25,366 nucleotides of DNA from a virus: IMG/VR virus record IMGVR_UViG_3300021407_000218, positions 1 through 25,366 of that record; one strand, given 5' to 3'. Below are positions 1 through 23,732 of the stretch, in pieces. Position 1 is the stretch's first letter. Each line of letters starts with the position of its first letter. Under the pieces are notes generated by a model. It had not been told where the DNA came from. It did no database searches and saw only the letters and a list, made by a program, of their open reading frames with translations. Made by a program: the position numbers and the translations under genes.

Positions 1-31
1 ACAGCAAAACTAAAGCTAAGATCCGTTTCAT
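1..31 (-). CDS. Start of a probable exported protein, cut by window edge
   Basis: Only the first ten codons lie in the window. They read MKRILALVLL, a positive n-region followed by a hydrophobic run, which is how a Sec signal peptide begins. The ATG sits two bases after the TGA of the upstream exported-protein gene, so the two are probably translationally coupled. The leucines are encoded partly by TTA within an AT-rich word (CTAAAG on the plus strand), as in the signal peptides of the two neighbouring exported proteins. The function cannot be seen because the mature part lies outside the window. Confidence 0.55.
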   Translation of the reverse strand, partial: MKRILALVLL

Positions 32-32
32 A

Positions 33-437
33 TCACTGTTTCCCGGTGTAATGGAAAATCACCCTGGTTGTGCCGTCGCCCGCCGTGTAGCTGACTAAGT
101 TGATTCTTAGATAGAGCACAGGTTTCGAGACGATATGCTCCATGTACGCGGTTGTGCAGCTGTTGGTTGCCGGTGAAGTCACGTCCAGCCCATACCATGT
201 GCTGTTATCGGAGCTGCCCTCCACGCGGAACGTGCAAGCGGTTGGCGCGGTCCCGTTCACGCTGGCGTCGATCGTGTAATTTTGCGGACGGGCTGCGACG
301 TTCGAAAACTGCAAAGGGATAAGCGGCACGGCGGCGGTCACCGCTGGAAAGGTGTAGAGCAGGTTATTCGGCGCTTGAACCTGCGCCGCCGCCGTCGCAC
401 ACACTAAACTAAAAACTAAAAACGCTAGCTTTCTCAT
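33..437 (-). CDS. Small secreted beta-rich protein with signal peptide
   Basis: This 134-residue protein begins with a textbook Sec signal peptide: MRK, a hydrophobic core around residues 4-14, then an Ala-rich site with likely cleavage before Gln19. The mature part is rich in Thr, Ser, Val and aromatic residues and looks like a beta-sandwich. It has the pattern CTFRVEGSSDNSTWYGLD and a second Cys about 26 residues later, so one disulfide is plausible in an exported protein. From general familiarity, similar CTFR-EGS-D-W domains recur in environmental phage contigs, but I know no assigned function. A GGAG Shine-Dalgarno precedes the ATG. It follows the lysozyme gene by two bases. It could be a secreted host-surface factor, a superinfection-exclusion protein or an appendage subunit; the sequence does not decide. 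Confidence 0.8.
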   Translation of the reverse strand: MRKLAFLVFSLVCATAAAQVQAPNNLLYTFPAVTAAVPLIPLQFSNVAARPQNYTIDASVNGTAPTACTFRVEGSSDNSTWYGLDVTSPATNSCTTAYMEHIVSKPVLYLRINLVSYTAGDGTTRVIFHYTGKQ

Positions 438-439
438 GT

Positions 440-958
440 TTAAGTCTCCTTAATTTGCGATCGCACGATCGCTATATCGTCCTTGGCCCGGTTCGGGACT
501 TGGATCTTTGCCCATGCTGAGTCTTCCATCGCATCGGCGGCGGCGGGGTAGTCCTTGCGCTCGAATGCCGCGATGGTATCGACAAACTTAGACAATTTGG
601 TTGGCCCCAGGTTATAGATCATGTCAACGATCACGGCTTGTATCTCGTCCGGGTGCTCGTCGAAATTGCCCACAATTCCCGGTGCAAGCGCGATCGCATC
701 GTTGAGGTCTACCTCAAACAGCGCTTCAATGTGAACGTCTGTCAGTCTGACCAGGCCCGCCAGCACGTTATCTAAATCGAGACCCAGGGCGATGAAGCGG
801 CGGCGAATGCCGGGTACTTCAAAGAGCTTGTCGTCCTTGTCGCGTAGCGCCAACAAGCGCCCAATGCCCACCGTTGGGTTGCCGCCCGTGTCGTTGTAGA
901 CGACATAGCGGATGCCCTCATGCCGCCTGACGAGATCCGCCGTGTACTGCCGGTTCAT
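440..958 (-). CDS. Endolysin, T4-type lysozyme (GH24)
   Basis: This 172-residue protein is a peptidoglycan N-acetylmuramoyl hydrolase that would degrade the host wall at the end of infection. The T4 lysozyme catalytic layout is intact: Glu14 in RRHEGIR, Asp23 in YNDTGG and Thr29 in PTVGIG, matching E11, D20 and T26 of T4 lysozyme with a constant offset of three. A second family landmark, the DMIYNLG segment near residues 112-118, is present. There is no signal peptide or membrane segment, so release should depend on the holin candidate just upstream. Its ATG overlaps that gene's TGA in an ATGA arrangement. The length is close to the family norm. An AT-rich word (CTAAAT near 772) lies within the gene. 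Confidence 0.93.
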   Translation of the reverse strand: MNRQYTADLVRRHEGIRYVVYNDTGGNPTVGIGRLLALRDKDDKLFEVPGIRRRFIALGLDLDNVLAGLVRLTDVHIEALFEVDLNDAIALAPGIVGNFDEHPDEIQAVIVDMIYNLGPTKLSKFVDTIAAFERKDYPAAADAMEDSAWAKIQVPNRAKDDIAIVRSQIKET

Positions 959-1278
959 GGCTTCCCCTTTTGCACGGAGTTTTTTAGATCGGCTTTAGTT
1001 TCTGCGATGGTGTCCTGGCTCTCCTGCAATTCCGCTTGGGTGCTTTTAAAGCTGCCTACCACCTGGCGGCCCCAGGGTGATTTGAGGCACAGCGCCCCCA
1101 CCGTCATCAGCGCCCCTTGCGCAAAGAACTTCCAGAGCTTGCCAGATCCGAAGTCACGCGGGAATTGATACTTCGAGGGGTCCATTGCGGCGGCGAATGC
1201 TCCAGCAATCCCCCCACCAACACCGCCGATGATGAGGGTCTTAATCCAGCCCTTCGCGCCCGTTACCTCTGCTGCCAT
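955..1278 (-). CDS. Putative holin or lysis-accessory membrane protein
   Basis: This 107-residue protein has a Gly/Ala-rich hydrophobic segment at about residues 12-31, a second at about 50-65, and a charged C-terminal tail (78-107) that looks helical or coiled-coil. The size, two membrane segments, charged tail and position directly before the endolysin with an ATGA overlap all fit a class II-like holin that would let the lysozyme reach the wall. T7 also has its small holin (gp17.5) just after the tail fibre gene, as here. I do not recognise a named holin family, so the call rests on topology and position. The start has a strong GGGGGAG Shine-Dalgarno. Confidence 0.6.
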   Translation of the reverse strand: MAAEVTGAKGWIKTLIIGGVGGGIAGAFAAAMDPSKYQFPRDFGSGKLWKFFAQGALMTVGALCLKSPWGRQVVGSFKSTQAELQESQDTIAETKADLKNSVQKGKP

Positions 1279-1290
1279 GACACTCCCCCT

Positions 1291-4200
1291 TTAGTGAATC
1301 CACCAACACACAATCGAGGTGTCGGCGTTGTTGCTCGAATTGATAACGAAGCTGGTCCCCGGTGTGATCGTGCCCACGGAAAGGATTCCTAACGTCCCTC
1401 CTGCTTGGCAGTTGGTGAGCGTGTACGTTAGGGTGCTGGTCATCGCGGCGGCGGCGGTGGTGCTAACTGTCACCGTGCCTGCTACAAGAGTCGCCCGCCC
1501 CTGATTCGGCGGATGGAATCCGCCATTGAATCCGCTGAGGTCAATATCCGATCCGGCAGGCAGCGTGTAGGTCGTGTGAACGGGCAGGCTTAACGGCGTG
1601 CCGCCGTCACACCGCCAAGTCTCGTTTATCTTGGTCGGCTGCACGCCTGCGGCGGTGTTCGATGAGGTAGACCAGCCGCATCCGGTGCTGTTGGTCGTGG
1701 TGCCGTTCCACCACGCGAAATAGTCGTACCAGCCTGGAGGACCGTTGAAGGTGCCCGCTGCGGTTGCGGCCAGCCCGTTTCTATTCCCCATGCGTGAACC
1801 CTGCGCCCCCGTGCCGGTGTTATAGCTGACGAACTGCACGGCGTTGTTACCGCTGGCTTGAAAACTTGCTTGCCACTGCGATACGGCAGCGTTCCACGAT
1901 TCAAAACTAAGTCCGGCGTTAACCCCTGTATTGGCTGGCGATCCTCTCAAGCAAACCCGCGTGAGGGTGTGCCCTGAGCCCATGTCATAGAAGCAATGCT
2001 GCGAGAGGTACTGATGGCCCATATAATCGCCGGTCAGCGGGTCCGGGCTTGTGTTGTTGTACAAGCTCCAATAGTTCGTCGTGCTGCTCGCCATCGCGGT
2101 ATCGTTCGATGGGTCAATATAGGTCACCTGTGCATAGGAGCTGTCGAGCGGATACTGCACCGCGAAGACATGCGGCGATCCGGTGTTGAGAATTTGCCCG
2201 TTAGCTACGCTGGTTGTTTCTGCGGCGGTTGTGCCCGCAGTGTTATTAACCCCCAGGATGGCACTCCCGAACACTTTGATGTAATCCTGACCGTATATCT
2301 CCGGGTTAGTCGGTCCCCAATACTGCATACCTTCAAATAGTGAGGTCGAGTTAGCCTGCGCTTTTTGGGCTCGCGTCCAGGTTGAGTAGCCATTCGGGAT
2401 CGGCCCCATGAGAAACGTCCCACAAGTGTAGTTAGTACCGTCCACGCAGTAGCTTGCCCAGCCCGTTCCCGGAGGTCCAAGCGATGAGGGGTGCCAGCTC
2501 TTGATCGTGACCGGCCCATAGCTGCCCTGCGGCTGCATCGCGATGATCGAGCCAGCGGGCCATGCAGTGTTTGTTACCGTGCTGCCTGCCTGGTTGCGTG
2601 CTCTAATCATCACTTGCTGCGTAGTGCCAGAGAAGACCACCAGCGCCAGCTCATAACTCCCACGGGTAATGCTCGGGACTGCCGTAGATGGGGCGCTGCT
2701 GTTAACTAAAAAGTCCGCTGGCTCGATGTAGTAGAGGCCGCCCTGCGTGTTCGATGGAATGTCGGCGGGATCGTTGATGTACGGGAACGCATAGGCTGTA
2801 CTGGCCACGGGCGCGGTTGCGGTCGGCGCGGTGCCGGTGATCGTCCCGGTTAAAGTCGTCCACCAGGGGTAACCCACATCCATGAGCGCCGGATTTACCG
2901 GGATACGGTTGTTTATGGGATAGCCCTCGCAATATAGATCCTCGATTAAACCGCCCTGGTGATTCGTGATATAGACGCAAGGGCTGTACCACAGCGATTT
3001 AAGCGAGCCGCCCTGCACCTGGAAGGTGTCGCCGCCCACGGTCAGCGCCGCGCCCCAATACTCAGGCAGAAGTGTGGGTGCAAAGGTAAGACTGCTCGGC
3101 GTCTCGGTGTCAGTGATCGTTGTAGCTGCGGTCACCGTGTATTGCGTGCCGGTCGGCGTGGTGTTGGTAAGTCCGGTAATTTGATAGAAGCCATTCAGCG
3201 CCGGGTTATTCGTCGCGCCGCCTAGCTGGAACCAATGCCCTACTACCTGCGGCGAGATTCCATTATTTGATGGCCCGTTGTTTCCCCCGTTGATGACGAG
3301 GCTTAGCGTGGTGCCGTTGGCTGTCATCGCCGCCACGGTTTGCGGCGTCACCCAGTTGGCACTCGGGTAAACACCGTTCGGGCAATTGCGAACGGAGTAG
3401 CAATAACCGTTAGCGTCCTGCCCTGGCGAAGCTACGGACGTGTCAAGGAAGCGATTCTCATTCCCTGGTCCGACGACTGACCATCTGTTTGTGTCCCATT
3501 CCGTCGCGATTACTCTTAGCCGCTCTGTGTTCCCTGCCGTTGCCAGTCCCCGGTTGCCGTTGCTTCCGCGAACTTTAAACACGGTGAAGCCCACCGCGTT
3601 GAGTAGTTCTAAGAGCGTGCCGGACGAGAAATGTCCGCCTGGGGCATGGATCGTTATGTTTTCGATTGACCCTTGGCACGACCATTGATTCGGCTGCGGC
3701 CCTACCCCGCCTGATACAACTACCCCGTCATAGTTCACGCCTGCGGTTGTTCCCACGTAGAGAAGCGATGCGCCCTCTCCATCGCCAATCAAGTGCAAGT
3801 TGCAGTTCATTCTTAGCGGCGCTTCGAGATAGTAAGTGCCTGCGGGAACCCAGATAGCCGGGTTTCCGTGCCCCTGCGGATTCGCGATTGAATAGGCGAT
3901 CGCCGCATTGATGGCCGCCGCCGATGGCCTGACCCCCAGAGGATCTGCGCCGCCTGCGAACATCGGATTCTGCACGTTCACCTTGGGTAACGGCGTCATC
4001 CATCCGGCTTGCCCGATGATGTCGCCCGCCGCGTCGGTGTAGATCCTGTTCGGAGATGACACGGCAAAGTTTGAACCGCCGTTCATCTGCAAGTCATAGA
4101 GCTGCCCCGCTGGATTGTTCGCGGTGCCGCCCTGCGCCACGCAAGTGTTTGTGCCCGGTGAGTACACCATCCCCGGCGTGCAGTTTGGCGGCCACACCAC

Positions 4201-4491
4201 ATTCGCGGGCGGGATCTGATCGAATCGCACGCAGGCGTTGGCTGCCGGGTTGTAGACGCCCATTGGCTGCTGGCAGCTCGGGATCGGCCACACGATAGCC
4301 GATGAAGGAAGCGAGCCGATATTCTGGCAGTTGTTCGCGCCTGGTACATACGCGGCGCTGGTGGACAGGCAGCTCGGGACCGGCCAGCGGATCTGATTCC
4401 CTGGGTTGATCTGATTCTGCGAAAAACTAAAACACCCAAAACTAAAAAAACTAAGTATTAAGAGTAACTGCCTGGTATATCGCATACGCAT
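1291..4491 (-). CDS. Tail spike with pectate-lyase-like beta-helix and signal peptide
   Basis: This 1066-residue protein is the likely receptor-binding spike. The first 25 residues (hydrophobic LLLILSFFSF core) look like a Sec signal peptide. Residues 36-117 hold three tandem repeats of about 32 residues with the pattern WP-P-C then Y-PG/A-N-C, giving Cys pairs 41/55, 73/87 and 104/117. From about residue 178 the text GADPLGVRPSAAAINAAI and WVPAGTYYLEAPL is typical of the Pectate_lyase_3 right-handed beta-helix in phage spikes. The last 70 residues (LVAGTVTVSTTAA onward to W-I-H) match a C-terminal domain often seen in phage tail proteins. A GGGGAT sequence supports ATG 4491 or, with better spacing, ATG 4485. 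The first 41 bases overlap the upstream small gene. An N-terminal signal peptide is odd for a virion protein, since particles assemble in the cytoplasm. Confidence 0.85.
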   Translation of the reverse strand: MRMRYTRQLLLILSFFSFGCFSFSQNQINPGNQIRWPVPSCLSTSAAYVPGANNCQNIGSLPSSAIVWPIPSCQQPMGVYNPAANACVRFDQIPPANVVWPPNCTPGMVYSPGTNTCVAQGGTANNPAGQLYDLQMNGGSNFAVSSPNRIYTDAAGDIIGQAGWMTPLPKVNVQNPMFAGGADPLGVRPSAAAINAAIAYSIANPQGHGNPAIWVPAGTYYLEAPLRMNCNLHLIGDGEGASLLYVGTTAGVNYDGVVVSGGVGPQPNQWSCQGSIENITIHAPGGHFSSGTLLELLNAVGFTVFKVRGSNGNRGLATAGNTERLRVIATEWDTNRWSVVGPGNENRFLDTSVASPGQDANGYCYSVRNCPNGVYPSANWVTPQTVAAMTANGTTLSLVINGGNNGPSNNGISPQVVGHWFQLGGATNNPALNGFYQITGLTNTTPTGTQYTVTAATTITDTETPSSLTFAPTLLPEYWGAALTVGGDTFQVQGGSLKSLWYSPCVYITNHQGGLIEDLYCEGYPINNRIPVNPALMDVGYPWWTTLTGTITGTAPTATAPVASTAYAFPYINDPADIPSNTQGGLYYIEPADFLVNSSAPSTAVPSITRGSYELALVVFSGTTQQVMIRARNQAGSTVTNTAWPAGSIIAMQPQGSYGPVTIKSWHPSSLGPPGTGWASYCVDGTNYTCGTFLMGPIPNGYSTWTRAQKAQANSTSLFEGMQYWGPTNPEIYGQDYIKVFGSAILGVNNTAGTTAAETTSVANGQILNTGSPHVFAVQYPLDSSYAQVTYIDPSNDTAMASSTTNYWSLYNNTSPDPLTGDYMGHQYLSQHCFYDMGSGHTLTRVCLRGSPANTGVNAGLSFESWNAAVSQWQASFQASGNNAVQFVSYNTGTGAQGSRMGNRNGLAATAAGTFNGPPGWYDYFAWWNGTTTNSTGCGWSTSSNTAAGVQPTKINETWRCDGGTPLSLPVHTTYTLPAGSDIDLSGFNGGFHPPNQGRATLVAGTVTVSTTAAAAMTSTLTYTLTNCQAGGTLGILSVGTITPGTSFVINSSNNADTSIVCWWIH

Positions 4492-4702
4492 TATCCCCGA
4501 TTTCCAGCTGGTAATTGAGGCTTATGGTGCGTTGCGAGAGCGTGAAATGAAGTACAGGGATTTGAAATATGCCGTTGACGAAAAACCAGAAAAACCCCCC
4601 CTGTTGGGGTGACTGGCTCAGACTGAAGATCGGCCCTGGCGAAACAACAACCCCGCCATCGGTGGTCATGTACGGCAGAACCGGGACAATGGGGATCGTC
4701 AT
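4451..4702 (-). CDS. Small appendage protein, single copy of a duplicated domain
   Basis: This 83-residue protein aligns along most of its length with the last 67 residues of the upstream 242-residue protein. Shared positions include the NG turn, LH, TI and the IGDN motif followed by A-Y-A and LN. Such NG...GD modules are common in phage appendage proteins. It therefore looks like a stand-alone paralogue of that C-terminal module. An AAGG Shine-Dalgarno lies seven bases before the ATG. The 3' end overlaps the spike gene by 41 bases, and the codons for the EIGDNA motif also supply the spike's ribosome binding site. It may sit between spike and tail or modulate the spike; this is inference from position. 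Confidence 0.65.
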   Translation of the reverse strand: MTIPIVPVLPYMTTDGGVVVSPGPIFSLSQSPQQGGFFWFFVNGIFQIPVLHFTLSQRTISLNYQLEIGDNAYAIYQAVTLNT

Positions 4703-4711
4703 TTCAGGGCC

Positions 4712-5440
4712 TTAGTTCAACGATGTGGCGACGTACGACGCGCAGAGGTTGTCACCTATGGCGGTGTCGAATGTCAGCGTGATGGTTTGGCCGCTCAAGC
4801 TGTAGTGCAGCGGGTTGAGCAACAGCGTGCCGTTGTAGAAAAGCCCTATGATCTGGCCGTTATAGGGCTGGCGTGTGAGCGTGTAGACGTTCCCTGGCGG
4901 CGCTGAGAGCGCTTTATAGCCTGTGGGCATGGACGCGATCGGCGGCATTGGCTTGGGGCGGGTTGGCTTCACGAAGCCAAGCTCGGTCAGCTTCACAATC
5001 AGGTCGTTGATGTCGGCCTTCTGCTGCTGAGTCAGCCCCGGAAGGATGATCCAAATATCCGCCGTCACGAACTGAAGCGGCGGTACTCCGATGCCTGGGG
5101 CCACCTGTTGCGCGTTGCTTAGATCTATAGTTTGCGTGCCGGTGAACTGGTAGATTCCCGATTGCACGATGTTCTTTTTGTTGTCCTCTATGGTGATGCA
5201 GTAAAAGGTCTGATTCAGCGGCGTGATCTGATCGTTACCCCACAACAACAAGCCAGTGTCGAAAGTCCCATCTGCGAGCGAATACGCGATCGGCCCCACC
5301 TTTGCGAGCATCGATGTGCCCTCGATCATTGGCAGGACAGCGCCGAAGCCAAACAACACAATCGTGACCGTGCCCTGCTGCACGGCATTGCCGTTTATAT
5401 CCTGCAAGGTGCAAGTTAGCGTGATGTTCGGCGTGGCCAT
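4712..5440 (-). CDS. Tail fibre or appendage adaptor protein
   Basis: This 242-residue protein has three parts. Residues 1-115 form a beta-rich N-terminal domain (TCTLQDINGNAV, then LWGNDQITP and TFYCITIED) of the kind found at the base of tail fibres. Residues 135-170 form a short helical and Pro-rich linker (LTQQQKADINDLI, then KPTRPKPMPP). Residues 176-242 are a small beta domain ending in IGDNLCASYVA that is repeated as the next gene. The start has a GAGAGG Shine-Dalgarno. It lies between the SleB-like gene and the spike, which supports a role in attaching or assembling the host-recognition apparatus. No catalytic motif is visible. Confidence 0.7.
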   Translation of the reverse strand: MATPNITLTCTLQDINGNAVQQGTVTIVLFGFGAVLPMIEGTSMLAKVGPIAYSLADGTFDTGLLLWGNDQITPLNQTFYCITIEDNKKNIVQSGIYQFTGTQTIDLSNAQQVAPGIGVPPLQFVTADIWIILPGLTQQQKADINDLIVKLTELGFVKPTRPKPMPPIASMPTGYKALSAPPGNVYTLTRQPYNGQIIGLFYNGTLLLNPLHYSLSGQTITLTFDTAIGDNLCASYVATSLN

Positions 5441-5869: not shown

Positions 5870-6045
5870 TGCTGCTCGGCCCCCCCGCTCTTGCCGTGGC
5901 CTTTTAGCACCCGTTCTTCGTGCGGCGTTTCGAGATATTCCATCCCGCCGCCGCGCTTGTGTTGCAGACAAAGCCCGCTCACTGAGGCAGAGCAAACCGG
6001 ACAGATAACCGATAGCGTCTCCTGGTCATACTGGTCAAAGCTCAT
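5866..6045 (-). CDS. 59-residue zinc-knuckle protein
   Basis: This short gene starts at an ATG overlapping the TGA of the 261-residue gene (ATGA), after an AGGGGGA Shine-Dalgarno. It ends in a TGA that overlaps the GTG of the next gene. The tight coupling on both sides argues that it is translated. The sequence has CPVC near residues 16-19, a further Cys and a His (GLCLQHKRGGG) about eight residues later, and a charged tail rich in Glu, Lys and His. A single zinc site of the CxxC...CxxH type is plausible. The function is unknown. Confidence 0.7.
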   Translation of the reverse strand: MSFDQYDQETLSVICPVCSASVSGLCLQHKRGGGMEYLETPHEERVLKGHGKSGGAEQQ

Positions 6046-6827
6046 GCGTTCCCCCTGTTGTTCCGTAGATCGTAGAGCTGTTGAAGATACCACTTCGAGG
6101 CGCTGCGCTCGTTCACGGGAAATGCCTTGTGCGCCTCGGTCTCGGTGATGACGCCTTGCGTAATCATCGCGAGAAGCGCCGTGCGCCAGCCCAGATATTT
6201 TGCATACTTCGGCACTCCGTATTCGGTGAATCGCATCATCATCCATTCGGTGCCCACGGGGAATTGCAGCGTGGCGACTTGCAGTTTTTTATCTTGCGTG
6301 TGGTATGGCCCTGGCAGGATCAGATCCGATTTGTTGGGGTTCTCGATGAGCACGGCCACGCGCCCCATGATGGCGTAACGGTACAGCTCGACGCGCCCGT
6401 GACCGATGATCTTCTCCAATCGCGCTATGAACTGCGCGGGGGTTAGCAGCTCGCCGTAACGCTCGTCTTCATTCTCTTTGCCGATCCAGCGCCCCTGGCC
6501 GTCCCATTGGTCTTTGCGCGTGGCCATCGTATTCAGCTCATGGAGCATCAGGCTCTTTTCTATAAATTCCTGAGAATTTCTAGATTCTTGAACTTCATCT
6601 TTTAATTTTTCTAAAGCCTCAGTCACACGCGGATGCTGCCAAAGCAGCTGCTCAGGACCGATGTAAAAGTAATCGTCGTCTTTTAGTTGTGGGGTGAACC
6701 CGCCCTTGTCGATGTCCTCCGCCGCCTTGCGTAGCTCGTCGTTCATCCAGTGTTCTTTCGGTGCGGACTGGTGTTCAACGGGAATGACTACGCTCGGCGC
6801 TTCGCCGTTTTTGATTTCTTCGCTCAT
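6042..6827 (-). CDS. Conserved-looking phage protein of unknown function
   Basis: I do not recognise this 261-residue soluble protein. It has an acidic N-terminus, a Lys/Glu-rich helical middle (about 85-105, EALEKLKDEVQESRNSQEF) that may form a coiled coil, and a more ordered C-terminal half with many aromatic residues (EWMMMRFTEYGVPKYAKYLGW near 195-215). No signal peptide or membrane segment is seen. Its ATG overlaps the stop of the large ejection protein upstream, and its own stop overlaps the 59-residue zinc gene. An AT-rich patch (about 6555-6615) covers the helical region. Position after the internal virion genes and before the appendage genes suggests a virion or assembly role. Confidence 0.7.
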   Translation of the reverse strand: MSEEIKNGEAPSVVIPVEHQSAPKEHWMNDELRKAAEDIDKGGFTPQLKDDDYFYIGPEQLLWQHPRVTEALEKLKDEVQESRNSQEFIEKSLMLHELNTMATRKDQWDGQGRWIGKENEDERYGELLTPAQFIARLEKIIGHGRVELYRYAIMGRVAVLIENPNKSDLILPGPYHTQDKKLQVATLQFPVGTEWMMMRFTEYGVPKYAKYLGWRTALLAMITQGVITETEAHKAFPVNERSASKWYLQQLYDLRNNRGNA

Positions 6828-8770
6828 CGGTTGTAGTACCTACCTTCCAGCAAGTGCTCTGCCGTTCTATAGCCTGCTGCTAACCCAACACCTGTCAAAC
6901 CTGCGCCCACCTTTACGCCCGTCTTGATGCGGTTAGTACGGCGCACGATGTTGTCAGATTGGATCTTTGCCGCGTCTACTTCGTTCAACAGATCGCGGGC
7001 GCGGCCAGGGCCAAGGGCTTCCTGCAAACGTTCATCATCGTGCATGTCGTGCAGATGATCGAACAGCTGTTGGATCTTCAGGCTTTCGGGTGTGCCTACT
7101 CTTCCCGGCGTCACGTCCTGCGGGCGCATCCCATCGGTGTTGTTCCGGATTACCGCTGTCAATTCGTCCAGCGCATCGCTCTGTTGGCGTAGGGCTTCGG
7201 GAGTTTTCGGCGTGGCAACTTGGGCGCGGTCCACATGGCGGAGCAAGTCTTGCGCGTGCCCTTCGCCAAGCGCGGACTGCAATCTCCCGCTGTCATACAT
7301 CGCATTCACGCGGGCTTCTAGCCGCCCTGGATGCACGGTCTCTGGCGTGGCTGGCTCGCCTGCCTGCCGCAGCTCGGGACGCAGGCCCTGCGTGGTCTTG
7401 CGGATGTGGTTCGAAAGTTCCTCTACACCTTTGTGTTGGCGATAGAGGTTATTCGCCTCTTTGATTAGGTCGGGATCTAAGCCTTTCCCGCGCAGCTCTT
7501 TGATCGCCTGTTCCATCGAGGCTTGCTCGGCATTCAGCCGCTCTACCAGGCGGCCCTCTTCCTCGGGATCTGTGCCGGTGACGTTCCGCAGCGCATTATT
7601 TATATTTTTAATTTTTTCGCTATAGGTCTGAAAGCGCCGGCCACCTAGCGCCTCATCGAGTTGTTGATAAGTCCCCTTCGCTTTGTCCTCCAGCGAATCT
7701 GACAGTTTCAAAGCTGCATCGCGGATGGATTGGGGTTCCTCCACTTTTAGATTCATGTCCTCGCCGGACTTGCGGATCACGTCGCGGATTCCCTTTTGCA
7801 GATTGTTTTGCGCTTCCGCCGCCGCTTCTGCGGTCGTCTGTCCAACCGCCGCGGGCTGGCGCAGCGCATTCGACAAGTGCTCAGATACGTCGCGGATCGA
7901 GGGGATGTCATCCGGCAGTGGGACGTTGCGATCGCCCGCAGCGCCTTTGAGGATGCCGCGTATTCCCTGCATCAGATCCTCTTGCACGCCCTGCTGCGCG
8001 GTCGCTCCGGTCCACAGCTCGCGACCTGTGCGGCCTGCGGCACGCACCACACCCGGCAGCTCGGGCACTGCGCCCAACGTGCCGCCGATCGCCGCGCCTT
8101 CCAAGCCCTTTACCGGATCGCCGGTCTGCGCTGTTGTCACCCCTCCGCCAACTGTCGCCCCCTCGGTGCCCGCGACAATGCCCCTTCGCAGCGCATTCAT
8201 CAAGGAAGTATCGCCTTCCACAGTTTTTAAAAAAGGTAAAACCTTCTGCAATCTTTCAGCATAGGAAAGCTCTTTCAAAGCTGCGTCGCCTGTCGCAAAT
8301 TCGGCTAGGCCCTCCATCACCTTTCCGGCCTTCTCGTCCGGTGTAGATCCACCCTCAGCTATCGCCTTCATACGATCTAAAAATCTAAAATGCCTCTCGT
8401 CCGGCGCTTCGCCTGTCACCCCTCTAACTGCCAGATCGCCAAGGCTCGCGGCAGTCCCTATCCCGCCGCGTATCATGCCCGCCACGGTTCTCGTTGTGTA
8501 CCCCTCTGGCCCGCCCATTCCCCCCATCGTGTCTAGGATCTGTTCGGGCAGGCCCTGCGGCACTGGTTTAACCGGCTGCATTGTGCCCGTGCCGGTGCCG
8601 CCTGGTCCTGCTGCGCCTGTTGTTGACGTTTGCCCTGCCGCCATCTGATCGAAGATGGTTCCCCCTCCAGCTCGCGGGGGAGCTGCGGCGGCGGGCGGCG
8701 CAGCTGGCGGCGGCGCATCCCCGCCCGGTGCCTGTCCTGCCGCCATCTGATCGAAAATGGTCGTGCCCAT
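6824..8770 (-). CDS. Large internal virion/ejection protein candidate (gp16 position)
   Basis: This 648-residue protein occupies the T7 gp16 slot, the last of three internal virion protein genes, though it is much shorter than T7 gp16. The N-terminus carries the ten-residue motif TIFDQMAAGQ twice, separated by an Ala/Pro/Gly linker. Then come a Gly-rich segment, a region with small hydrophobic stretches (about 190-245, IVAGTEGATVGGG and GAAIGGTLG) that could insert in membranes, long charged alpha-helical regions (about 300-610), and a Gly-rich hydrophobic C-terminus (GVKVGAGLTGVGLA). No transglycosylase motif is evident. An AAAGG Shine-Dalgarno precedes the ATG. A role in forming the DNA ejection conduit is inferred from synteny and composition, not from sequence identity. 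Confidence 0.7.
   Translation of the reverse strand: MGTTIFDQMAAGQAPGGDAPPPAAPPAAAAPPRAGGGTIFDQMAAGQTSTTGAAGPGGTGTGTMQPVKPVPQGLPEQILDTMGGMGGPEGYTTRTVAGMIRGGIGTAASLGDLAVRGVTGEAPDERHFRFLDRMKAIAEGGSTPDEKAGKVMEGLAEFATGDAALKELSYAERLQKVLPFLKTVEGDTSLMNALRRGIVAGTEGATVGGGVTTAQTGDPVKGLEGAAIGGTLGAVPELPGVVRAAGRTGRELWTGATAQQGVQEDLMQGIRGILKGAAGDRNVPLPDDIPSIRDVSEHLSNALRQPAAVGQTTAEAAAEAQNNLQKGIRDVIRKSGEDMNLKVEEPQSIRDAALKLSDSLEDKAKGTYQQLDEALGGRRFQTYSEKIKNINNALRNVTGTDPEEEGRLVERLNAEQASMEQAIKELRGKGLDPDLIKEANNLYRQHKGVEELSNHIRKTTQGLRPELRQAGEPATPETVHPGRLEARVNAMYDSGRLQSALGEGHAQDLLRHVDRAQVATPKTPEALRQQSDALDELTAVIRNNTDGMRPQDVTPGRVGTPESLKIQQLFDHLHDMHDDERLQEALGPGRARDLLNEVDAAKIQSDNIVRRTNRIKTGVKVGAGLTGVGLAAGYRTAEHLLEGRYYNR
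8634..8761. repeat. Two 26-bp near-identical direct repeats in an ejection-protein gene
   Basis: Copies lie at 8634-8659 and 8736-8761 and differ at one base (GAAGATGGT versus GAAAATGGT). On the minus strand they encode the two TIFDQMAAGQ peptides at the N-terminus of the 648-residue protein. The 76 bases between them encode a low-complexity Ala/Pro/Gly linker. Confidence 0.85.
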
Positions 8771-18122: not shown

Positions 18123-19289
18123 TTAGGTTGTCTGGGGTACTGCATCCCAACAACGGGCGCGGCTCGTCGTATCTGGCGGCGGGCCGAAAGCGAGAATCGC
18201 GTTATAGGAAACGCCCCCACCGATAACACCCGGAGGGTCGGCCTGGTTGCCCATCTGGTATTCGCCCATCCACAGTTTCATGTTTTTGTAATTCCCATCG
18301 TCAACATCCGTGCGGTTCTCACGGTTGAGCTTGATGGTGATGGCGGCGTCACGTCCGGCGCAGTAGGTGCGAATAGCCGTGTTGCCGGTAGCTTTCCAGT
18401 TGGGGGTCTGAGTGCAATTAGTGCTCGCCATCCAATGAACACCGAACAGCTCAATAATGCGGATGCTGTCGCCGTCCTCTGGGTCGGGCAGCTCAGACAA
18501 CTTCATCTGTCCTTCTGCGGTGTGCTTCCAGATGTCCACGATGCTGTTATTGGACGTGTCGAGCGCGACCATATCAGCAATGAAGAAGGGGTGAATCTTG
18601 CCGCCAAAGTAGCCGGTGTCCAGTTCGGCCACGTTCTGACCGCGCAGGCTGAAAGGTGCCTGCTCGATCATCGCCTTTGTGAAGTTGGGCGATCCTACCG
18701 TAGCGTCCAGGTTGGCAGTCTTCGGATCTAAAATCCTTAAATAATCGAAGATTGCCATTATCAAATCATCGACGGACAGGCCAAGGCGATACGCCATTTC
18801 ACGGCGCAGCGCGATCATGTCATCGCTGATCGAGGTAACCAGGGCCTTGTCGCTGATGTTGAGGTAATCCGCCCACTGGCCAAGAACATAGTCTTGGAAA
18901 TTGGCGGTGGTGGTGATGCCGGTTCCCACCGTGCCCTCGGCCTGTTCCTGAGTATTCGCGGGGAACACTGGCCACATGAAATTGCGGTAAATTTGACCAG
19001 ACTTGGCAGGCATTGGCAGCCTGGTCGTCATCCGCATCATCACCAGTTTCGCTTTTAGGTTTTCTAAAAAGTTTTTATTATAAAACGTTGAAAAGGCTGC
19101 CTGCGGCATATTGCCGGATTGCATCGAGGCTGGCGAGAAGCCATCGCAGAATGCAGCTCCGGGGTGTGCAGCACAGGACAGCGCATAGCGCGAGGTAACA
19201 ACGATCGCAGAACCTAGCGCAACGATCAGTTGGAGGATTGGGAAAACAACCCAATCGACCAGCCAGCGGGTAAGCCTCTCTGTCGGCAT
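18123..19289 (-). CDS. Major capsid protein, N4-gp56 family type
   Basis: From ATG 19289 the product is 388 residues. The core starts near residue 69 with FYNKNFLENLKAKLVM, followed by MPAKSGQIYRNFMWPVFPA, EGTVGTGITTTANFQDYVLGQ and YLNISDKALVTS. This is the order seen in the N4-gp56 family of HK97-fold capsid proteins. The C-terminus is near normal for the family. The start is ambiguous. ATG 19289 has a GGAG seven bases upstream; GTG 19310 adds seven residues; ATGs at 19124 and 19109 have no Shine-Dalgarno but would give the usual short N-terminus. The best-supported start adds about 55 residues with a hydrophobic segment (residues 13-31), unusual for a capsid protein. It lies 24 bases after the scaffold candidate, with a hairpin in the gap. 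Confidence 0.88.
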   Translation of the reverse strand: MPTERLTRWLVDWVVFPILQLIVALGSAIVVTSRYALSCAAHPGAAFCDGFSPASMQSGNMPQAAFSTFYNKNFLENLKAKLVMMRMTTRLPMPAKSGQIYRNFMWPVFPANTQEQAEGTVGTGITTTANFQDYVLGQWADYLNISDKALVTSISDDMIALRREMAYRLGLSVDDLIMAIFDYLRILDPKTANLDATVGSPNFTKAMIEQAPFSLRGQNVAELDTGYFGGKIHPFFIADMVALDTSNNSIVDIWKHTAEGQMKLSELPDPEDGDSIRIIELFGVHWMASTNCTQTPNWKATGNTAIRTYCAGRDAAITIKLNRENRTDVDDGNYKNMKLWMGEYQMGNQADPPGVIGGGVSYNAILAFGPPPDTTSRARCWDAVPQTT

Positions 19290-19309
19290 GGCAGTGCTCC
19301 GGTCACGCA

Positions 19310-19345
19310 CTGCAAACTAAAAAACCGGGAGTTTTTAGTTTGCAG
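19310..19345 (-). promoter_or_regulatory. Perfect 14-bp hairpin between scaffold and capsid genes
   Basis: The arms CTGCAAACTAAAAA (19310-19323) and TTTTTAGTTTGCAG (19332-19345) are perfect inverted copies with an eight-base loop (ACCGGGAG). The scaffold gene's TAA lies inside the stem and the capsid gene's GGAG and ATG follow just after it. No T-run follows, so it looks less like a terminator than an RNA-processing, mRNA-stability or translational-insulation element. It is built from both orientations of the recurrent CTAAAA/TTTTAG word. Confidence 0.6.
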
Positions 19346-22247: not shown

Positions 22248-23732
22248 CTACTGCGCGAGCTGGATAGCTACGGTCGAGTACGCGGGAACATCGGCCTTCA
22301 CCATCGCTTCATCAGCGGGCGCGGCCCTTAGATCCTGCTTAGTTAGTGAGTTATTGCCCAGGGTGAATAGCTGGCTGTGCGTCGGCTTGATGCCCAGGTG
22401 CGAGAACTTCACCCGCAGCCCGCTAACCGCCGTGGCCGTGGGATTGATGAGCACCAGAGTATCTGCTGTTGGGTTGTAGAACGTGATGGTAAGCAAGCCG
22501 CTCGGCGCTGTCGGTGGAACCACTACGTTGAAGCCTGTCTCTTCGAGGTTGAGATAATCGCTCGCGCAGAACAGCTGAAAGGCCATCAGCGACGGATAGG
22601 GCACATAGGCGGCGTTGTAGGGCTGCCCATCCTTCGGGGGGTTGCACATCAGCGGATCGCCGCCCTGAATCCCCTCAAGGCAGAAATACCCCCGGCTGTC
22701 TGCGGACATGAAGTAGACGATTCGACCAGGCGGCAGCGAGCCTTGCGCTACCACATCGAGAAAATCAGCAATCGCTACCGTGTTCCACAAAGGCCCATAT
22801 ACCGTGTCGTTCTGTACGTTGTTCGGCTGGTACGCATAGTTGGTGTTGTACTCACTGACGATGATCGGCGTGGTGGCCGCGTTGGGCTGCGAGCCTTTGC
22901 GAACGGTTTGCTCAAGCTGGCGATAGTAGTAGGCGATTCCGCCAGTCGGGTTTTGCGTCGTCTGGTAAGCCTGGTCCCAAGTCATCCCCGGAAGCAACCA
23001 GGTGCCGGTGATGTAGACGTGCCACGAAACGAAATCGACATAGGGCGCGGTGGCCCCGCTCAACAAGGGCGGTATCCAGCTGGCGATGTTGGCGGAGCTG
23101 GCCAGCGTGGGACCGCCTAGCTTGGCCGTGGGTGCGGCCTTTCTAAATTCCGGTCCCAAGGCCCCATAGAGTTTTAGATAGTTCCCCAGAGGATCGGACG
23201 GCGGGCAGAAACTGCCGTTGGCAACATCTGGCTCATTCCACAGTTCGTAATTCAATCCGGGGTGGAGCTGGTCCGTGTGCTTGACCGCCTGCGCCGCCAG
23301 CTGCGCCCACTTGGTTAGATTGCTCGGCATCGAGCATGGCTGCGGCCCCAGGCTCGGCGGCGTGCCGTAAATCGTAATCATGGGGCTTAACCCGTTCTGC
23401 GTGCCGCGTGACAACTGCCCATCCCAGGCGCTGTAGTTCGGCGTGTCGCCGTTGGCAAAGATGGTTTGAACGTTGATCCAGATACGATTACCGCGCAGGT
23501 TTACTTTGGTCAGATTGTCGATTCCGCTTTGACTCGAAACCGTCGAGCCTACACCGCCGCTGCCGAAGAAGTTCGGCGGCACGCTGACCGTGCTTGTGCG
23601 TCCACCAAAGTCCGCGACCACATCGGCAGGCTTGTGGTGATGGAACAGCCACCAGAGCACCAGGAAAGCCAGCACCATGACAAGGAAGGTGTACAGAAAC
23701 ATGAATTTATAAAATTTTGGGTTGCCTGCCAT
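22248..23732 (-). CDS. Membrane-anchored clan GH-A glycoside hydrolase
   Basis: This 494-residue protein has an N-terminal membrane anchor (about 8-30, FMFLYTFLVMVLAFLVLWWLF) with Lys on the cytoplasmic side. A TIM-barrel domain follows. NYELWNEPD (161-169) places the acid/base at Glu167. SWHVY (236-240) has the conserved His. IIVSEYNTNY (290-299) gives the nucleophile Glu294. The spacing and motifs are closest, by eye, to GH39-like enzymes, but GH5, GH51 or GH79-like membership is possible. The last 90 residues form a beta domain. It should act on a beta-linked polysaccharide in the periplasm or outside; the substrate is unknown. It sits in the head gene cluster but is probably not a virion part. 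A GAGAGG Shine-Dalgarno precedes the ATG. Confidence 0.85.
   Translation of the reverse strand: MAGNPKFYKFMFLYTFLVMVLAFLVLWWLFHHHKPADVVADFGGRTSTVSVPPNFFGSGGVGSTVSSQSGIDNLTKVNLRGNRIWINVQTIFANGDTPNYSAWDGQLSRGTQNGLSPMITIYGTPPSLGPQPCSMPSNLTKWAQLAAQAVKHTDQLHPGLNYELWNEPDVANGSFCPPSDPLGNYLKLYGALGPEFRKAAPTAKLGGPTLASSANIASWIPPLLSGATAPYVDFVSWHVYITGTWLLPGMTWDQAYQTTQNPTGGIAYYYRQLEQTVRKGSQPNAATTPIIVSEYNTNYAYQPNNVQNDTVYGPLWNTVAIADFLDVVAQGSLPPGRIVYFMSADSRGYFCLEGIQGGDPLMCNPPKDGQPYNAAYVPYPSLMAFQLFCASDYLNLEETGFNVVVPPTAPSGLLTITFYNPTADTLVLINPTATAVSGLRVKFSHLGIKPTHSQLFTLGNNSLTKQDLRAAPADEAMVKADVPAYSTVAIQLAQ

Follow-up and report, generated by a model that had tools for sequence, protein, structure and literature searches.

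Tailed-phage assembly is, in the textbook account, cytoplasmic throughout, and to our knowledge the beta-helix spikes of podoviruses carry no signal peptide and are likewise assembled in the cytoplasm. The stretch of DNA analysed here (the window, an IMG/VR virus record of 25,366 bases) contains genes for an SU10-type portal, a capsid protein, tail proteins, an endolysin and a spike, and the product of the last of these, at 1291-4491 on the minus strand, was confirmed at the sequence level as a phage spike with a beta-helix and a phage-type C-terminal domain that begins with a Sec-type signal peptide. It resembles the podovirus spikes of the P22 gp9 and Klebsiella K1 lyase type in its beta-helix, its phage-type C-terminal domain and its location in the tail module, and also in that an enzymatic part which is exchanged between spikes follows an N-terminal module which stays constant; it differs from them in that its family has a signal peptide, and its N-terminal module matches no known head-binding domain.

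Several exported proteins offer partial parallels. The known exported receptor-binding protein of phages is pIII, a minor coat protein of filamentous phages; it has a Sec signal, and its disulfides are required for entry into the particle (PMC10424213). The window spike would share with it a receptor-binding role, a Sec signal and disulfides (predicted in this case); however, pIII has a membrane anchor and enters a particle that is assembled by extrusion at the membrane, whereas the portal, capsid and endolysin genes of the window are those of a tailed phage, and a filamentous pIII type was rejected on that ground. The Sec-exported late proteins of tailed phages include endolysins, namely fOg44 Lys44 and the signal-arrest-release (SAR) endolysins (PMC6116005). 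These are also phage late proteins sent via Sec, but they are lysis enzymes and not receptor-binding proteins, and in the window the endolysin lacks a signal whereas the spike has one. WceF of Pantoea stewartii is an exported, trimeric, tailspike-like glycan hydrolase with a Tat signal (PMC7949094); the likeness lies in the export of such a hydrolase, and the differences are that WceF is encoded by a bacterial gene, uses Tat and acts on the biofilm glycan of its own host. A literature search covering open-licence papers found no earlier report of signal peptides on tailed-phage spikes.

The window spike and its signal peptide

The spike gene and its parts are as follows.

1291..4491, minus strand: tail spike precursor, 1066 amino acids (aa) (open reading frame, ORF; PF12708 and PF24146; homologues L002, 84% identical, and L042)
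4420..4491, minus strand: Sec-type signal peptide, residues 1-24, predicted cleavage between SFS and QNQ (n, h and c regions; kept in L002, found in 33/33 related spikes)
4138..4419, minus strand: N-terminal module of the mature spike, residues 25-118, with an NPxxxIxWP motif and three Cys-pair repeats (motif position in 20 spikes; common to spikes with unrelated C-terminal parts)
3757..3951, minus strand: start of the beta-helix (Pect-lyase_RHGA_epim; Pfam 5.4e-7)
1297..1503, minus strand: K1-lyase C-terminal domain, phage type (Pfam 1.4e-17)

The Pfam matches, Pect-lyase_RHGA_epim (PF12708) at residues 181-245 and the K1-lyase C-terminal domain (PF24146) at residues 997-1065, give the protein both the pectate-lyase-like beta-helix body and the C-terminal phage-type trimer/chaperone domain of a podovirus tail spike; PF24146 occurs in just one of the 30 spikes and fibres of the set. 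No relative of the spike sequence was found in the PDB, no match among isolate phages, and no known head-binding family matched the N-terminal module of the mature spike in Pfam and PHROG searches. An AlphaFold model, built from three aligned sequences, had a predicted local distance difference test score (pLDDT) of 27 and yielded no usable fold.

The N-terminus, MRMRYTRQLLLILSFFSFGCFSFSQNQINPG, combines a positive n-region with three Arg, a core of hydrophobic residues (highest Kyte-Doolittle mean over 10 residues 2.65, from residue 9) and a small-residue site at which signal peptidase I cleavage would be permissible after Ser24, with small residues at -1 and -3. A positively charged and then hydrophobic start on a beta-helix spike, to which the first-pass annotation had drawn attention, is thus present on this gene and strand. 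Signal peptides were called throughout by a simple rule based on the n, h and c regions, which was checked on a set of five signal peptides from E. coli and two negatives; the N-terminus of P22 gp9 scored negative. The window gene has two start ATGs and L042 has the second alone, so that the start common to the window and its L021/L042 relative is probably Met3, at position 4485. A lipoprotein signal, cut by signal peptidase II, was considered and is unlikely because the lipobox-like SFGC of the window becomes FSFCFL in L002 and the Cys at +1 is not kept; a Tat substrate was rejected as well, since no twin arginine is read in the window signal.

Distribution of the signal and cysteine content of the spikes

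The signal is retained in the closest homologue, L002. In the next closest, L021/L042, both the signal and the NQINPGxQIRWP that comes after it are preserved, although most of the remainder has diverged. The 242-aa gene that lies upstream of the spike served as the anchor with which related contigs were retrieved. Among the 30 fetched, one ended before the spike, and the spike or fibre gene adjoining the anchor bears a signal peptide in 28/29, the exception being L069, a 96-kb contig of another lineage. These calls depend on the start codon chosen: 21 of the 28 are positive when the start nearest the anchor stop is taken blindly, and 28/28 when any nearby in-frame start is allowed. All of the spikes adjacent to the anchor, a putative adaptor gene, in the capsid-protein family bear signal peptides (28/28), as do those of contigs retrieved via another gene (5/5). 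In total, the tail-module spike has a signal peptide in 33/33 related IMG/VR contigs, and in this the window spike and its relatives depart from podovirus spikes made in the cytoplasm with no export signal. A chance signal is unlikely because the same rule gives a positive call for only 2/128 genes located upstream in these loci. The same capsid protein family was found in all 24 further signal-spike contigs tested and, judged by this sequence marker, the carriers are therefore one broad phage family with records of roughly 30-43 kb.

The spikes of this family form many clusters (more than 20), which have little in common beyond the signal and about 75 residues, and their C-terminal parts are unrelated. 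The motif NPxTxIxWP or a close variant lies 2-11 residues past the predicted cut in 20 of the spikes listed. The usual residues at that cut are AQ or SQ, and the n, h and c regions are kept while the sequence of the h-region drifts; a few spikes (e.g. L031 and L037) have long n-regions. The spikes thus have a shared N-terminal module with exchanged C-terminal parts, as in known tail spikes, and the module would have a putative role in virion binding.

Exported disulfide-bonded proteins tend to carry their cysteines in pairs. The mature spikes contain 1.96% cysteine when pooled, against 0.27% in the genes lying upstream in the respective loci (Mann-Whitney p = 3e-12) and 0.79% in a larger control set that includes chance ORFs. 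The number of cysteines is even in 30/33 mature spikes (p = 7e-7) and, counted by cluster, in 20/23 (p = 2e-4), the latter being the safer count as the relatedness of the spikes weakens the cysteine p-values; among control ORFs that lack a signal and have at least four cysteines it is even in 49/97. Counts in related spikes mostly step evenly (14, 16, 18; 16, 18, 20, 22; 20, 32), and the five later contigs gave 18, 8, 25, 20 and 22. The window spike has 21 cysteines in the precursor and 20 in the mature protein, all 20 of which are kept in L002, while the lone cysteine within the signal shifts position between the two. This even and high content, as expected of disulfide-bonded proteins, argues independently for export.

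Putative adaptor, neighbouring genes and acidobacterial relatives

The following features accompany the spike gene in the window.

4712..5440, minus strand: putative spike adaptor, 242 aa, no signal peptide (adjoins the spike in 28 contigs; same domain fused to a signal-less fibre in L069)
4451..4702, minus strand: ORF of 83 aa, a repeat of the adaptor's C-terminal part (34% to adaptor residues 164-242)
955..1278, minus strand: holin-like hydrophobic ORF (position and hydrophobicity only)
440..958, minus strand: endolysin (phage lysozyme), no signal peptide (Pfam PF00959; PHROG 7)
33..437, minus strand: 134-aa protein with a predicted signal peptide (..ATAAAQ) and 2 Cys in the mature part (ORF, signal rule)
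1..31, minus strand: beginning of another protein with a predicted signal peptide (MKRILALVLL..), truncated at the window end (sequence; full length in L041)
18123..19310, minus strand: major capsid protein, which defines the family and links it to Acidobacteria (24/24 contigs tested; 38% to Tunturi_3; 37% in an Acidobacteria metagenome-assembled genome, MAG)

In the signal-bearing family the adaptor is a separate, signal-less protein whose gene often overlaps the spike start by 10-40 nt. In the window it is the end of the 83-aa ORF that, in a different frame, shares 41 nt with the start of the spike gene, and this overlap is retained in L002 and L021. In L069, by contrast, the adaptor domain forms the front part of a fusion with a fibre that has no signal and two cysteines (hhalign probability 99.2%); positions 6001-8413 of this 96-kb contig, which is without spike signals, hold tandem adaptor-domain genes, the second of them being the fused one. 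A genome scan with the adaptor as query returned no match. An adaptor match on another contig of the Acidobacteria MAG was off target and was dropped once the prophage contig had been located, and Tunturi_3 gp15 aligned with the adaptor domain over 30 columns only (probability 48%) and is not claimed as an adaptor.

Short signal-bearing genes, often with an even number of cysteines, follow the spike in many phages of the family (window 33-437 and 1-31; L002 10048-11985; L067 7616-9927). An ATPase-like gene (GKNGQGKSSVLDA) lies shortly past the spike in L050 (9414-10841) and also in L043, L056 and L060. Between the portal and capsid genes of the window, 22248-23732 on the minus strand encodes a protein of the GH39 family (Pfam 9e-11) that has a membrane helix at its N-terminus.

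Among isolates the capsid protein has a single strong match, in Tunturi_3 (38%), which is a podovirus that infects the acidobacterium Tunturiibacter, and a capsid-protein scan of the genomes of 85,000 species recovered a single relative, a prophage that lies in an Acidobacteria MAG (37%). The fibre gene of this prophage has a signal (MLIRLRGAVLFALLLTLFVPCAIAQ), and exported host proteins encoded beside the prophage have signals that end in WAQ and AAAQ. In L108 (DAIDIE010000043.1, 207352-208326) a signal-bearing gene lies on the opposite strand between prophage structural genes.

Among cultured phages, the Tunturiibacter podoviruses Tunturi_1 and Tunturi_2, which come from soil and have T. psychrotolerans X5P2 as laboratory host, have signal peptides on gp12, gp13, gp14 (annotated spike or pectin lyase), gp16 and gp17. 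Tunturi_2 forms plaques and its large spike and fibre genes all bear signals; its metagenomic relative L114 has three signal-bearing fibre genes in a row. The gp12-gp17 genes show the same arrangement and signature as the window family, in cultured acidobacterial podoviruses, but the capsid protein is not detectably related and the genes bear the annotation of ordinary fibres or spikes. The paper describing the Tunturi isolates mentions no signal peptides and contains no virion proteomics (PMC11924767). The spike signal is not universal among phages of Acidobacteria, since the tail genes read of Tunturi_3 and Tunturi_4 and the fibres of Tunturi_5 have none; nor was a signal found on the tail genes read of the Bacteroidota phages crAss001, phi38:1 (partial) and B40-8, taken as diderm-host controls.

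Proposed assembly route and rival explanations

The explanation that we prefer as a whole, at somewhat better than even chances, is that of an exported, disulfide-bonded receptor-binding spike that docks on a separate tail adaptor. The protein would be the receptor-binding, glycan-degrading tail spike of a podovirus-like phage lineage of Acidobacteria. Its precursor would be exported via Sec and cut by signal peptidase I, and the mature protein would fold with intramolecular disulfides in the periplasm, while the adaptor would be incorporated into the particle in the cytoplasm. The N-terminal module of the mature spike (NPxTxIxWP and Cys-pair repeats) may then dock on this adaptor, encoded just upstream, at the time of inner-membrane opening by the holin or shortly after lysis. 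The steps of this route are of unequal standing: export of the spike is very likely on the sequence evidence, and incorporation into the virion, once export is granted, is fairly likely.

Several points weigh against this explanation. The signal calls depend on a simple rule and not on SignalP, and cleavage of the spike is predicted and its presence in the virion inferred. Tunturi_3 and L069, which are distant by capsid protein, are without spike signals. The adaptor model has a pLDDT of 61 and gave no significant Foldseek match, so that no known docking system is tied to it. Cysteine content alone is no proof of export, because virions assembled in the cytoplasm can carry disulfides, as in phage 7-7-1 and in Milano as cited there (PMC12796354).

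The main rival, which is unlikely in our view although it deserves the most weight among the alternatives, is that the protein is secreted as a depolymerase or adhesin and does not become part of the virion, and that it clears or coats the exopolysaccharide round the infected cell so that progeny leave or superinfection is blocked. The signal peptides and the cysteine signature are in line with it, further short exported proteins are encoded later in the same gene block, and a host-encoded exported tailspike-like enzyme, WceF with its Tat signal, is known (PMC7949094). However, Pfam and PHROG searches revealed no further spike or fibre candidate in the window, and all of the large spike and fibre genes of plaque-forming Tunturi_2 are signal-bearing, which argues that the signal-bearing spikes and fibres are the receptor-binding parts; and docking is suggested because a constant N-terminal module past the signal, with swapped C-terminal parts, stands next to an adjoining adaptor. 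An origin as an auxiliary gene, in which a host-derived exported enzyme kept a signal with no role for the phage, would fit the pectate-lyase-like fold and signals that end in AQ as in the host proteins flanking the acidobacterial prophage. It is nevertheless improbable: more than 20 clusters of spikes that occupy one slot of the tail module retain the signal, separate phage lineages have it, and the window spike has a phage-type C-terminal domain.

The first-pass annotation had also raised the possibility that the hydrophobic start anchors the spike to tail or membrane; in such a reading the start would be an uncleaved, permanent helix and the protein would stay cytoplasmic until lysis. The strongly hydrophobic h-regions and the long n-regions of a few spikes (see L031 and L037 above) would suit such an anchor, but the n, h and c regions with their AQ or SQ at the cut after the hydrophobic stretch are conserved despite the drifting h-region, cysteine parity matches that of exported proteins and the cysteine within the signal is not positionally conserved, so that this anchor too is given little credence. 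Least credible is the suggestion, from the same annotation, of two products, a full-length secreted form and a virion form started at Met136. All that speaks for it is an in-frame Met at 136, and it fails because this residue is Leu (CTC) in L002 and codons 1-135 are constrained like the rest, with a ratio of nonsynonymous to synonymous substitution rates (dN/dS) of 0.19 against 0.20 for the remainder (window versus L002); moreover, the homologues begin at the signal peptide and not near residue 130, and few parts of the spikes are as widely shared as the N-terminal module. The export signal that the same annotation had read on the spike is thus supported, clade-wide and with a separate cysteine signature, without the two-product mechanism attached to it.

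At a broader level, we would give even chances to the proposal that tailed phages of Acidobacteria complete their virions outside the cytoplasm, through Sec export, periplasmic disulfides and late docking, and that this route arose or spread in at least two lineages of the phages of this phylum. It is testable now, as cultured phages carry the same genes. If true, the annotation of phage structural genes would change, because signal-bearing spikes are easily mistaken for host genes or metabolic extras, and the choice of receptor-binding proteins and of enzymes cutting acidobacterial polysaccharide would be aided. It would also account for the making of disulfide-rich spikes, and would constitute a second assembly route for tailed phages, in a widespread group of soil phages.
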